This document shows, piece after piece, positions 22,785 to 27,020 of a stretch of DNA of 53,284 nucleotides. Positions within the stretch are counted from its first letter, which is position 1; each line of letters begins with the position of its first letter. The DNA comes from Alistipes sp. (lineage in GTDB: Bacteria; Bacteroidota; Bacteroidia; Bacteroidales; Rikenellaceae). Location: NCBI GenBank assembly GCA_017398555.1, contig JAFQFV010000018.1:1-53284 (forward strand), written 5' to 3'. The notes below the pieces were generated by a model. The model saw nothing but the letters and a program-made list of their open reading frames with translations, was not told where the DNA came from and ran no database searches. A program made the translations under genes and the position numbers.

Positions 22785-23657
22785 TTATCTGTAAATCACG
22801 TAGTTGCGCAGATAGTTGATAAGCGTTAGGAGTGGGAGCAGGAACGCCATCATAAGGGTAAATATGAATACGATAAGCAGCGAAAACCAAGTCTCGGAGT
22901 TGTCCGTATCGTAACTCTTGGAGCCGTCGCTGTAGGTCTTTACCACCGTATAGCTCTTGGCGGCAGCCACGCCTGTCAGCAGGCTGAGCAGGGTGCGTTT
23001 AACCCAACTGCCCGACTTGTTGCTACCCTTGGCAAGTTGCGCAATAAGCATAAAGTTCGGAGTGCGGCTGGCAAGAAGATATGCTGTAATACCCAAAATC
23101 ACCGCCACAATTGCGGGTGGAAAGGCAACAGACATAATAAGTCCGACAATGGCAAACAGCACAACCAATGTCTTGGAGCCGTTAAATTGACGTGTGCGGG
23201 CGTGGTTGAACACCTCGCTATAGCTGTTTATCTTCTCTACAACGGCCTTATCGGTAGGATTTGCAGTAACGGCCTGCTGCAGAATGGCAAGCGACTGCTT
23301 GATAGCCGAATATTTGTGCGGATATGTGACTATATCTCCCTTGCTATCAGCAACTTCGCCCCAAATGCCATCTATGCTGTCGAGAGAGGTGTTGAGCGCA
23401 TCAACCTCGCTGCTTGTCATCGCTCCGAGCGCTGCATCGGCTCTGTTTTTAGAGAACTCGGCAACCGTATAGTCCGTGCGCAGACCCTTCTGCTTAATGA
23501 GAATAATTATTGTGTGCACCGCAACAACGAGCAGCACCACCAGCGCCGAGATAATCTTCACCCAAAGATTTCGTTCATAGTCAGTAAGGGCATTATCCTC
23601 CGCAAAGGCGGGCAGAGCGGCCAATGCAAAGAGGAAAAGGAGTGTAAATCGCTTCAT
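22785..23657 (-). CDS. Membrane protein of unknown function
   Basis: A 290-residue protein I do not recognise. It has a signal-peptide-like start (to about AFAED), a TM segment about 32-53, a soluble region about 60-165 with predicted helices, a pair of TM segments about 165-205 (VLFAIVGLIMSVAFPPAIVAVILG) and a C-terminal TM about 258-282. A hydrophilic stretch with VVKTYSDGSKSYDTDN precedes the last helix. It stands alone with its own strong promoter. No catalytic motif is visible. Confidence 0.65.
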   Translation of the reverse strand: MKRFTLLFLFALAALPAFAEDNALTDYERNLWVKIISALVVLLVVAVHTIIILIKQKGLRTDYTVAEFSKNRADAALGAMTSSEVDALNTSLDSIDGIWGEVADSKGDIVTYPHKYSAIKQSLAILQQAVTANPTDKAVVEKINSYSEVFNHARTRQFNGSKTLVVLFAIVGLIMSVAFPPAIVAVILGITAYLLASRTPNFMLIAQLAKGSNKSGSWVKRTLLSLLTGVAAAKSYTVVKTYSDGSKSYDTDNSETWFSLLIVFIFTLMMAFLLPLLTLINYLRNYVIYR

Positions 23658-23676: not shown

Positions 23677-23708
23677 CAAAGTTAGACAAATTTTACCATA
23701 GTTACAAA
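23677..23708 (-). promoter_or_regulatory. Promoter of the membrane-protein gene
   Basis: Minus-strand TTTG (23708-23705), 20 bases, TAACTTTG (23684-23677): a full two-element match. It ends two bases from the left copy of the 75-bp direct repeat. Confidence 0.75.
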
Positions 23709-23710
23709 TT

Positions 23711-23785
23711 AGTTATTATATCACTGTTTGCAACTAAAATATTCTAACTTATTGTCTAGTAAATTACTAGAATGATAGTGCAAAG
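23711..23785. repeat. 75-bp perfect direct repeat, left copy
   Basis: Identical base for base to 24839-24913. Internally it is an imperfect dyad: TTTGCA, CTA, ATTCTA on the left mirror TAGAAT, TAG, TGCAAA on the right, with the palindrome CTAGTAAATTACTAG (23756-23770) inside. Its last bases also form the outer arm of the palindrome that follows. Confidence 0.95.
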
Positions 23786-23851
23786 CAAGGCGATGAAAGC
23801 GGAGCATAGTAAACCTATGTGAGCATTTCAGCGTCCGCCGATTTGTGCAAA
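23779..23851. repeat. Imperfect long palindrome inside the module
   Basis: Nested inverted arms: TGCAAA/TTTGTGCA outside, GGCG/CGCC (23789-23792 and 23836-23839), TGAAA/TTTCA, and CATAG/CTATG around TAAAC in the centre. It resembles extragenic palindromic elements I associate with Bacteroidales genomes, but copy number cannot be judged here. The rest of 23852-23955 holds no gene. Confidence 0.6.
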
Positions 23852-23955
23852 AAGAGCCAATTAAAACTACCAGCACTTAAAATCGTAAATAATTGAGCTA
23901 TTTTTGTGCAATTTCTCGGCTTCTATTATTAGAAGCAGTAAGTTAACGAGAGAAA

Positions 23956-24768
23956 TTACTCTAATTCAAAGCATAAAGTTTCACTCGTTTTCGCCGTTGT
24001 ATTATATCTCACATTTATGTCTAATTTGATTTTTCTTCTAGATTTATTAGAGTTTTTAATCAACATCTCTTTATCTCCAAACTTATCATCTTTTGGATTT
24101 TGAAGAGAAAACAGATTGCGTCTAACTGCAAAGACTTCTTGATTGTACGCTACAGCCGCAGGGAATGTATATAGACCGTTTTTTATTTTTTTTGCAGAAA
24201 CAACTTCTTGATTTTCATTTATAAATCCGATGATAACATTATCGTTGGCAGATGATTGTATTGATACATATACATTATCCGTATAATTATAAAATCTCTG
24301 ATCGGTATGAATCTGGATACTAGAGGACATCAAAGATACAGATAGACACATACCTAAGAACATCCATATACTCAATACCCAATACGCATTAAGAATCGCT
24401 TTTCTTTTTTTGTAGAATGCAATTAAAAAAATTGTAATATATAGCAACAATGCACTTATAAACGGGTGAGAGTTAATAAAGTCCTTGCAAATTGCCATTA
24501 TTAATGCGTATAATATACCATAGGGCCAGGTATTAAAAAAAAGCCACGCAGTATACTCAACATATGTGGATTGTTCATTTGTTGGGGCAAATATACTTTT
24601 GCCTTTATTGTAGCACAAATATGCACCCATTAGCATATAAGCACAAACTAATGTCCGCGCATATAGATTATCCAATTGGAAATACCAAAGCGTAAATAAT
24701 GTAAATGTAATACTAATTAATAGTCCAAAATCTATACGAAGCAGTAAACGTTCTTCATTTTTTGTCAT
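23956..24768 (-). CDS. AT-rich multi-pass membrane protein of unknown function
   Basis: A 270-residue protein I do not recognise. About five hydrophobic segments occupy residues 10-160 (for example LLISITFTLFTLWYF and ALLLYITIFLIAF), followed by a soluble C-terminal domain of about 110 residues with several Asn/Lys-rich stretches. The DNA is much more AT-rich than its neighbours: line 24241-24300 has 17 G+C of 60. It is the only gene between two perfect 75-bp repeats, so it is probably acquired cargo. A possible promoter, TAACTTTG on the minus strand at 24916-24909, is formed across the right repeat junction and would give a long leader of about 135 bases. Confidence 0.65.
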   Translation of the reverse strand: MTKNEERLLLRIDFGLLISITFTLFTLWYFQLDNLYARTLVCAYMLMGAYLCYNKGKSIFAPTNEQSTYVEYTAWLFFNTWPYGILYALIMAICKDFINSHPFISALLLYITIFLIAFYKKRKAILNAYWVLSIWMFLGMCLSVSLMSSSIQIHTDQRFYNYTDNVYVSIQSSANDNVIIGFINENQEVVSAKKIKNGLYTFPAAVAYNQEVFAVRRNLFSLQNPKDDKFGDKEMLIKNSNKSRRKIKLDINVRYNTTAKTSETLCFELE

Positions 24769-24838
24769 CTCTGTAACAATTTTAATATACCTTTATTACA
24801 TAAGGGCTGGTAAAGGCTGTTAAGGGTAGTTAATTTTG

Positions 24839-24913
24839 AGTTATTATATCACTGTTTGCAACTAAAATATTCTAACTTATTGTCTAGTAAATTACTAGAA
24901 TGATAGTGCAAAG
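24839..24913. repeat. 75-bp perfect direct repeat, right copy
   Basis: Second copy of 23711-23785; the starts are 1128 bases apart. Flanking bases differ on both sides, so the repeat boundary is sharp. Confidence 0.95.
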
Positions 24914-24916
24914 TTA
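24909..24916 (-). promoter_or_regulatory. Possible leftward -7 box across the repeat junction
   Basis: TAACTTTG on the minus strand; its first three bases come from the flank and the rest from the repeat. The left repeat copy lacks it, reading TTGCTTTG there. No -33 TTTG at normal spacing. Confidence 0.35.
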
Positions 24917-24949
24917 CAAAAGAATTACAAAAAATCTCTAAAAATTCAT

Positions 24950-24957
24950 TATCTTTG
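24950..24957 (+). promoter_or_regulatory. Possible rightward -7 box
   Basis: TATCTTTG matches the consensus. Downstream is a 20-codon frame (25010-25072) preceded by an A/T-rich leader. It may be the promoter of a gene lost by decay. Confidence 0.4.
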
Positions 24958-25009
24958 CAAATAGATTTTTGAATTGCATATCAAGATTTCAGTTAAAAAA
25001 TTTAACTTT

Positions 25010-25072
25010 ATGAGAGTGGATATTGGGATGGAGCTAAAGGGAATTAATGGGAGAATTGAGATTTATTGGTAA
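25010..25072 (+). CDS. Possible 20-residue peptide
   Basis: ATG 25010 to TAA 25070 encodes a 20-residue peptide ending in RIEIYW, about 50 bases after a good promoter box. It may be a truncated gene start, a leader peptide, or chance. The 600 bases from 24914 to 25515 otherwise contain only the short frame at 25300 and the gene remnant at 25450. Confidence 0.2.
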   Translation: MRVDIGMELKGINGRIEIYW

Positions 25073-25299
25073 AGAATGATATAATAACTTACAAATTGCT
25101 GTGCCCCTCATAGGTCAGAACAAAATTTTTTTGCCATATAGTCTCCTATCATCCACGCAGATAGAGTGGCAACCGAGCAAAATCTCGCTGTGCCCTCTTG
25201 ACAAGGGCATTTTGAGGGTATATATTTGCAGTCGAATCGATTCGCTGGTTCCACTCACAGATAGGAATTTTTGAACTCTCATAAAATTCTCCTATCTTT

Positions 25300-25449: not shown

Positions 25450-25491
25450 AAACACCCAAACAAACACTTAGGCATAGATATTTTGTACTAA
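25450..25491 (+). pseudogene. Decayed C-terminal tail of a paralogue of the gene at 26340
   Basis: The last codons of the gene at 26340-27020 (KHPSKHLGIDILY then stop) recur here almost unchanged as KHPNKHLGIDILY then stop, and the match runs about 20 bases past the stop codon. Reading the same frame upstream meets a stop codon (25432) within a few codons and no matching protein sequence. This is a remnant of a third family member, or the scar of a duplication that created the following gene pair. Confidence 0.75.
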
Positions 25492-25496
25492 CTTAG
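25489..25496 (+). promoter_or_regulatory. Degenerate -7 box before the secreted gene at 25516
   Basis: TAACTTAG overlaps the stop codon of the gene remnant. The equivalent place in the repeat at 27018 reads TAACTTTG, the full consensus, so this copy looks weakened. Confidence 0.35.
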
Positions 25497-25515
25497 GGAA
25501 CATTTACTGCAAACA

Positions 25516-26343
25516 ATGAAACGCCTACTATCCATACTGCTACTTCTCTGCCCGATGATTGTATTCGGGCAGAGCTCTCTTGTGGTTAAGCACAGCTCGG
25601 ATACGCTGATTATTAAACAAGCTCCGAGTAGGAATGGAGAAGAGGGGTTCCCGGGCCCTTTTAGACTTATTTATAGGCCATATAGGCTTTTTGCTGACGC
25701 AGATTTGGTTGCGCTTCGTAATGAGAGCTATCGAAAAAAGTATAAGACAGAGCCTGAATATCCATACAAACGAGCTGTTGATAGAGTTATTGGCAAGTAT
25801 AGAGTGGAGGCCTTCTATAACGAAAAACAACAGAGTCGTAACTCTTATACTTATCCTAAAAAGTCGAGATACTATACAGTGCGTGTTGTGCCGACAGATA
25901 CTACGGAGGTTGAGTATTGGAATGTATATTATAAATCAATCGTCAGAGAAGTACAGTCAAAGATGGGTAAAGAGGTGGAAATCTCTGGAAGATTGACTAC
26001 TCGCCACAATGAGCTTCTTGACTATTTGGTACAACATTTCGGAGAGGTGATACTCCAAAATAGATGGAATTTGCTAAAAATTTTTATTGGCTCTAATGGA
26101 GTAGTACGCGATTTTAATTTTTATATAGACAGCATAACCTATCACTCTATTCCTACTAAGAAATATGTGCAGTTTATTAAGGGGTTAAACCGCAAAAAAC
26201 TATTTATGGATTGGCGCGATATACATCCTTACGATACTATCCCAGCGGTGTATGGTTACTATGTTGTTCCTCTATATATGGCTGATGGTGATTTTGTTCT
26301 ACCAAAGAGGCCAGAAAATAGCACTAACGAAGTAGAACAATGA
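25516..26343 (+). CDS. Exported protein of unknown function, paralogous signal peptide
   Basis: A 275-residue exported protein, not recognised. The signal peptide is MKRLLSILLLLCPMIVFGQ. The mature part is basic and tyrosine-rich, with EYWNVYYKSIVREVQSKMG near the middle and a C-terminal region FMDWRDIHPYDTIPAVYGYYVVPLY; it is probably beta-rich and periplasmic. Its first 50 bases are nearly identical to those of the next gene, although the mature proteins differ. It overlaps the next gene by four bases (ATGA). Confidence 0.65.
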   Translation: MKRLLSILLLLCPMIVFGQSSLVVKHSSDTLIIKQAPSRNGEEGFPGPFRLIYRPYRLFADADLVALRNESYRKKYKTEPEYPYKRAVDRVIGKYRVEAFYNEKQQSRNSYTYPKKSRYYTVRVVPTDTTEVEYWNVYYKSIVREVQSKMGKEVEISGRLTTRHNELLDYLVQHFGEVILQNRWNLLKIFIGSNGVVRDFNFYIDSITYHSIPTKKYVQFIKGLNRKKLFMDWRDIHPYDTIPAVYGYYVVPLYMADGDFVLPKRPENSTNEVEQ

Positions 26344-27020
26344 AAAGCCTACTATCCATACTGCTACTGCTCTGCCCGATGGCTACATTCGGGCAGGGTC
26401 GTAGTACGCCTGCCAACTTTGGCTTAGATTTTTTTGAGAACTATGCCGTAAAAGAGCCTGAGACACTTGCTTTGCTCAAAAACGACCACTCTTTCAGAAG
26501 TTACATTGAGGGAGCTACGAGGCAGGTGGCGGCCGAGCGGATGGTCGAGTTTATCGGCAAGATGGTTGAACTTACCCCTGAACGAGAGCAGAAGTTGGTG
26601 ACGGCGTTATGTCGTTATGTAAAGTCACATCGAGCAGAGCATACGGCCTCTGAATGGTCGGCATTGTGTGCTATGATAGATTCGGGGGTCGCGAAGGGTG
26701 ACTACTACATACTGCTTCAAGGTCGCATTGTCGATAGTGTAGTTGCTAAACACCTGACAAAAGAGGAGTTCGACAGGCTCAAAGAGCAATATATACCGTA
26801 TTTTAAGAGTATGATAGTCGCTCTGCGCAGTTTGGAGGGTGATTACAATCGCTACAACTGTGCAATTCATACCGACATCATTGTTACAGAGTACGGTTTC
26901 CCGAAGATTGACAATATAATTTGGTATCTGAGCCAGACCAATCAGGTACATATATCCAATGCACTTGCAAATGACAACAAACACCCGAGCAAACACTTAG
27001 GCATAGATATTTTGTACTAA
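26340..27020 (+). CDS. Exported protein of unknown function
   Basis: A 226-residue exported protein, not recognised. The signal peptide MKSLLSILLLLCPMATFGQ matches the previous gene closely at DNA level. The mature part is mostly helical (for example RQVAAERMVEFIGKMVELTPERE and LTKEEFDRLKEQYIPYFKSMI) and ends in a tail that is repeated in the remnant at 25450. Its stop codon overlaps a consensus -7 box, TAACTTTG. The pair 25516/26340 seems to be a small locally recombining gene family. Confidence 0.65.
   Translation: MKSLLSILLLLCPMATFGQGRSTPANFGLDFFENYAVKEPETLALLKNDHSFRSYIEGATRQVAAERMVEFIGKMVELTPEREQKLVTALCRYVKSHRAEHTASEWSALCAMIDSGVAKGDYYILLQGRIVDSVVAKHLTKEEFDRLKEQYIPYFKSMIVALRSLEGDYNRYNCAIHTDIIVTEYGFPKIDNIIWYLSQTNQVHISNALANDNKHPSKHLGIDILY

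Follow-up and report, generated by a model that had tools for sequence, protein, structure and literature searches.

The AT-rich one-gene module at 23711–25089 of the window, by which the whole analysed stretch of 53,284 nucleotides from Alistipes sp. is meant, could be explained as a 251-bp MITE, a small transposon that has inverted ends but lacks a transposase gene, carrying a 1128-bp insert after its base 75. From the sequence comparisons, this structure was considered about 85% probable, whatever the route that produced it. The first base of the MITE was located at 23711 and its last base at 25089, and the outermost ends are mutually inverted repeats. The insert was composed of one period, truncated, of a palindromic repeat, an AT-rich orphan gene preceded by its leader, and 75 bases that represent the MITE left end for a second time. 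The module provides a readable case of one foreign gene lodging in a compact gut genome, in which a tiny transposon would supply the homology for one joint and a dispersed repeat of a second kind would form the other, and it points to a MITE family in Alistipes-like bacteria.

Comparison of 23711–23785 (direct repeat 1, the outer left end) with 24839–24913 (direct repeat 2, the inner copy), both on the forward strand and both representing the first 75 bases of the MITE, gave 75/75 identity with a start-to-start distance of 1128, as claimed by the original prediction. Extending the pair 12 bases leftward lowered the identity to 94% for the 87 bases. An inverted copy of the first 13 bases of the repeat at 25077–25089, which had been missed at first reading, proved to be the key to the structure; the starting bases of the repeat recurred inverted within 25062–25094. 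The direct repeats had been taken to bound a mobile unit, yet any such unit would instead span 23711 to 25089. From the layout of the insert it follows that the 75-bp repeat ends at the MITE terminus on one side and in an 8-base overlap of two unrelated repeats on the other. The long palindrome noticed earlier inside the module could be confirmed, as 23786–23920 folded as single-stranded DNA with a z of -3.9 and none of 200 shuffles was as good. The dyad within the 75-bp repeat, which had been likened to a folded recombination site, had a fold z value of -1.22 on one strand and -0.98 on the other, equalled by 26/200 and 37/200 shuffles, respectively; the fold was thus unexceptional, and the repeat represents the left end of a MITE-like element. 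Perfect direct repeats that flank a gene are not necessarily recombination sites. A search of the own genome (2,030,739 bases in a 38-contig draft, 89.39% complete) for the additional repeat copies envisaged by the prediction revealed only these two at E ≤ 0.001. As for other cargo genes between such repeats, a second direct end copy was present only in the window among the end-pattern loci fetched from 180 genomes of the genus.

The complete MITE at 24839–25089 (forward strand) contained no ORF of at least 80 aa, and full-length DNA matches to it were obtained in three other species with E values of 3.0e-51, 6.0e-19 and 8.3e-54. These species carried complete, cargo-free MITEs of 219 bp (G162), 210 bp (G112) and 231 bp (G095), which were colinear from end to end with the window element minus the 1128 bp, across the insertion point; complete MITEs without insert thus ranged from 210 to 251 bp. 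The last 15 bases, AATGATATAATAACT, were common to all four, and the terminal inverted repeats agreed at 23/30 positions in G162, G112 and the window and at 26/30 in G095. The neighbours of the MITE, according to translations read by eye, were a polyprenyl-synthetase-like gene in G112, a zapA-like stretch in G095, and a gene without assigned role together with a recombinase-like ORF in G162. Since complete copies with inverted ends adjoin different genes in different species, they can be regarded as a low-copy MITE family. Complete copies were found in 4 of the 180 genus genomes, the own genome included, where repeat search and end pattern revealed no MITE beyond this single locus. A more degenerate paired copy was located upstream of a mutS-like gene in another genome (G030). 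A literature search found no description of this Alistipes-like MITE family; one paper retrieved concerns Porphyromonas (PMC5771137).

Searches with the MITE and its ends provided a census. The module search of 151 genus genomes, with at most two candidates scored per genome, recovered a direct and an inverted copy approximately 210–240 bases apart in G095 and G112. The strict end pattern (up to two mismatches) matched in 9 of the 180 genus genomes, and exact matches to it numbered two each in the window, G112 and G095 and one in G162. The relaxed pattern produced 25 matches in 20 of the 180 genomes compared to 15 for the reversed control (table counted by hand). Eleven of these matches had zero or one mismatch and 14 had two, and most of the latter can be regarded as background because of the 15 control matches. 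At E ≤ 0.01, 60 of the 180 genus genomes matched the MITE, mostly in short pieces, with full length in four. In the order, where two candidates were scored per genome, 27 of 393 genomes besides the own one matched at E ≤ 0.001; these matches comprised only pieces of about 26–72 bases inside positions 54–173 and were taken as AT-rich or promoter-like similarity rather than MITE copies. Within the genome collection the strict end pattern occurred in five stretches, three of them from Alistipes; the other two, from an alphaproteobacterium and a member of Gastranaerophilales, agreed with the MITE mainly over 25–32 end bases and were attributed to chance. Viral contigs contained no match to the strict end pattern, and no plasmid or phage record matched the MITE. 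No long inverted pair with strong ends, as expected of an autonomous partner, was present in the fetched loci, which mostly extended about 1.5 kb to each side.

A TAnnTTTG box was present on each strand in 4/4 complete MITEs, and the leftward box was preceded by TTG 20–21 bases upstream in the three relatives, a spacing lost in the window. Boxes on both strands also arose in 2.8–3.6% of 2000 shuffles per MITE copy, so that a promoter function of these divergent promoter-like boxes is suggestive only. An invertible promoter at 24839–25089, with inverted ends around the boxes, was considered and dropped, as the element occupies unrelated sites. Within bases 1–68 of the MITE (24839–24906), the window and G162 showed a single difference, compared to an identity of 77% for the entire element; the left end of the MITE may be functional. 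It was also observed in G162 that the MITE (L070, 2204–2422) lies about 1.1 kb beyond a 270-aa ORF (319–1128) with a C-terminal part resembling a tyrosine recombinase by eye, a neighbourhood that is possibly due to chance.

The flanks of the composite were informative on its ends. The same eight bases, TACAAATT, were present at 23703–23710 and 25090–25097 with 8/8 identity, and the window flanks agreed with those of the other copies at only 3–5 of eight positions. Among random pairs of 8-mers drawn from 421 flank bases, duplication included, the frequency of identity was 5e-5. The inner MITE end at 24839 was preceded by TAATTTTG, which agreed with the right flank at 3/8 positions, and is thus not the partner of the target duplication. 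Because identical TACAAATT flanks the outer ends and not the inner end, the composite 23711–25089 can be read as occupying one target site. Target duplications of the other MITEs were 8/8 in G112 but within an A/T run, and 4/8 each in G162 and G095; the left flanks of G162 and G095 matched the right flank of G112 at 7/8 and 8/8, in low-complexity sequence. The window thus held the sole copy with a specific target duplication among the four complete copies compared. The MITE left end lies 53 bases upstream of the start of gene A (22785–23657), for which a promoter-like pair could be seen on the minus strand, consisting of TTTG, 20 bases, and TAACTTTG at 23684. This pair stays whole, since the duplicated bases contain its TTTG.

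The cargo gene (23956–24768, minus strand) is predicted to encode an orphan membrane protein of 270 aa, and its 70-base leader (24769–24838) abuts MITE base 1. The low GC content pointed out by the original prediction was borne out, with 31.2% GC and 27.7% GC3 compared to a mean GC of 48.5% (sd 2.8, minimum 39.5%) and a GC3 of 53.3% in 45 other ORFs of the window. Three stretches of the protein exceeded a simple hydropathy threshold for membrane helices. A single-sequence structure model, with a mean pLDDT of 44.3, gives only a hint of a fold, made up of five long helices in the N-terminal part and a tail that contains strands. Relatives of the cargo could not be found in the 179 other genus genomes, and viral contigs, phages and plasmids contained no match. 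Weak partial matches of 15.8–20.3 bits, present in 7 of 392 further genomes from the order and in one of 155 from the phylum, were not accepted as relatives. Three Pfam matches were all below their cut-offs, NCBIfam and PHROGs gave no match, and, with regard to the defence role guessed for the cargo by the original prediction, none of the defence families of PADLOC-DB matched at E 1. One match among PDB sequences, at E 0.17, was ascribed to chance. As originally stated, no integrase or transposase was detected in the window by Pfam in 46 of the 59 ORFs of at least 150 aa; most of the other 13 overlap larger ORFs. The Pfam matches of the scanned ORFs represented ordinary chromosomal functions such as proS, RecG, UvrD, RsgA and GTP cyclohydrolase.

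Gene A had relatives in 12 other genomes of the 180, and its locus was inspected in four of them (G103, G003, G136 and G099). In G103, the nearest relative by gene A at 76% identity, genes A and C are adjacent and divergent and are followed by proS, with MITE, repeat and cargo absent between them, an empty locus. The order in G003 was A, C and proS, with C in two pieces; G136 had A and proS without C, and in G099 A and proS were about 2.4 kb apart on the same strand. From these loci, the MITE and its cargo are most simply additions in the lineage of the window. The acquisition of the cargo gene is supported by its foreign composition, the lack of a relative in the 179 other genus genomes, the empty locus in G103 and the occurrence of the repeat-bearing element without cargo in three further species. 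Of the earlier interpretation, the acquired cargo is supported and the folded-site cassette is not.

A single truncated period of an intergenic palindromic repeat of the genus, approximately 130 bp long, occupied 23778–23909 on the forward strand and formed part of the long palindrome. Its arms, AAAATCG...TTTTTGTGC and GTGCAAAAAG...CGATTTT, surround a hairpin core, and many genus genomes contain the repeat, both dispersed and as short tandem arrays. When a 1231-bp query was searched, 66 of 151 genus genomes matched, and all except G095 and G020 did so in the palindromic repeat (rows read by eye). The own genome contained no further match. As the repeat is common in relatives and otherwise absent from the own genome, it points to a foreign source. 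The left insert junction was GTGCAAAG (23778–23785, forward strand), an 8-base overlap that ends direct repeat 1 and opens the palindromic repeat, and which is presumed to be a short-homology junction. The GTGCAAAG stretch, to within about 11 bases, was missing from the three other complete MITEs. Rfam gave nothing at the gathering threshold in the window, and two matches near the module were far below it and were regarded as chance. The palindromic repeat has a REPIN- or MITE-like appearance.

The history of the composite that we tentatively prefer, at close to even odds, is that donor DNA recombined into a resident MITE at this locus. A passive MITE, served by a transposase in trans, would first have inserted upstream of gene A. 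The donor would have carried a MITE just upstream of the cargo gene and an array of palindromic repeats downstream, and the position of the donor MITE directly upstream of the gene would account for the inner repeat beginning exactly at MITE base 1. Donor DNA would then have entered the resident simple MITE through two joints, one a crossover within the MITE and the other, on the opposite side, a join by short homology at the eight bases GTGCAAAG. Entry by a crossover together with a short-homology join is known as homology-facilitated illegitimate recombination. The direct repeats would be a by-product, because the MITE is present twice. Against this route, the own genome contained no other MITE that could represent the donor copy or a simple resident one, and no donor carrying the cargo was found; the lack of the GTGCAAAG stretch in the three other complete MITEs and the restriction of a specific target duplication to the window copy also count against it. 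In principle, ordinary homologous recombination between the direct repeats might release the 1128 bp as a circle, with a clean MITE left behind. A more far-reaching reading, rather improbable as a whole, is that the MITE family acts as a gene-capture platform in its genus: orphan genes would be taken up at its conserved left end by recombination, the MITE would express or regulate them, and they could exit as circles via the identical ends. If this were true, single genes would be exchanged at sites close to promoters, and no recombinase would be needed.

A genuine possibility, although short of a probable one, is that the composite was built elsewhere and then jumped here as a 1379-bp unit by means of its outer left end and its right end, with a transposase in trans, in the manner of a mobile insertion cassette. 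Its assembly would have started from two MITEs beside the gene, one of which was shortened by a deletion between two GTGCAAAG stretches. The outer ends, inverted repeats with a specific 8-bp duplication, agree with such a jump; however, an older simple MITE would account for the duplication equally well, and the two histories, in-place recombination and arrival of the whole composite, yield identical sequence. Arrival in a single step would be economical because the own genome is without another MITE copy, and passenger genes between MITE-type ends are on record in the available part of one report (PMC5444012). A second composite was nevertheless not found in the loci fetched from 180 genus genomes, and neither a partner transposase nor a long element with these ends was found in viral contigs, plasmids, phages or the fetched genus loci.

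The suggestion of a folded recombination site in the repeat, with the gene as a cassette whose movement depends on a recombinase from another locus, is very unlikely. Perfect direct repeats do enclose one foreign gene, and a 1128-bp circle could form in principle, but the first base of the repeat coincides with the terminus of a MITE that occurs cargo-free elsewhere, its fold is unexceptional, and no second cassette was found in the own genome or the loci fetched from genus genomes. A further alternative, in which an element inserted into the MITE and generated the 75-bp repeat as an unusually long target duplication, is extremely unlikely. The direct repeats do border the insertion and other MITEs are uninterrupted; however, a start exactly at MITE base 1 would be a chance event, the other end of the duplication would also have to fall precisely in the 8 bases shared with another repeat, and neither inverted ends of the insert itself nor a transposase was found. 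An assembly artefact would be conceivable in a draft of 38 contigs and 89% completeness, with a cargo so sharply unlike its neighbours in composition, yet it is highly improbable, as the same 8-base duplication at both outer ends ties both flanks to one site. A length of 75 bases is also short relative to typical reads.

The module could further be compared with known systems. Integron gene cassettes consist of one gene between repeat copies, for which a circle is conceivable as it is here. They differ in that no integrase was detected among the 46 scanned window ORFs and the repeat is explained as a MITE end; compared to integron arrays, only a single cassette is seen, with two repeat copies in the genome and one gene. 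The qnrS2 cassette with a MITE on the Aeromonas plasmid pAC3 is described, in the available part of the report, as a mobile insertion cassette (PMC5444012). The module resembles such cassettes, as portrayed there, in that a passenger gene is accompanied by transposon-type ends and has a MITE upstream of it, and 23956–24768 lies between the inverted ends of 23711–25089 without a transposase; as far as sequence can tell, the module agrees with the concept of a mobile insertion cassette. Unlike the qnrS2 cassette as presented in that source (PMC5444012), the passenger here lies inside the MITE with a duplicated left end, the gene is an orphan, and the partner transposase was not found. BrickBuilt elements are MITEs of Porphyromonas gingivalis with reported bidirectional promoter activity, according to the accessible text (PMC4596501). 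The window element is similarly an intergenic MITE of Bacteroidales and has divergent promoter-like boxes in 4/4 complete copies. In contrast, BrickBuilt ends in that text (for example GAGACCTTCGCA, IS5-like) differ from the AGTTATTATATCA of the window MITE, and BrickBuilt is described with a 23-nt tandem repeat and no gene, whereas the window element contains a gene (PMC4596501). TIMEs are Tn3-derived inverted-repeat miniature elements which, according to the title of the report, generate mosaic non-autonomous transposons (PMC4133298). They are similar in being miniature elements tied to mosaic transposons; however, in the portion of the source available (PMC4133298) they have Tn3-type ends and observed transposition, whereas mobility of the window element is putative.

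The interval from gene A through gene C to proS differs among species, and in the window it bears the scar of a local duplication at 25450–25557. Pieces of gene C (26340–27020) are repeated there, comprising 65 bases of its 3' end (86%) and 46 bases around its start (96%). Owing to this duplication, gene B (25516–26343, GC 39.5%) opens with a copy of the gene C signal peptide.
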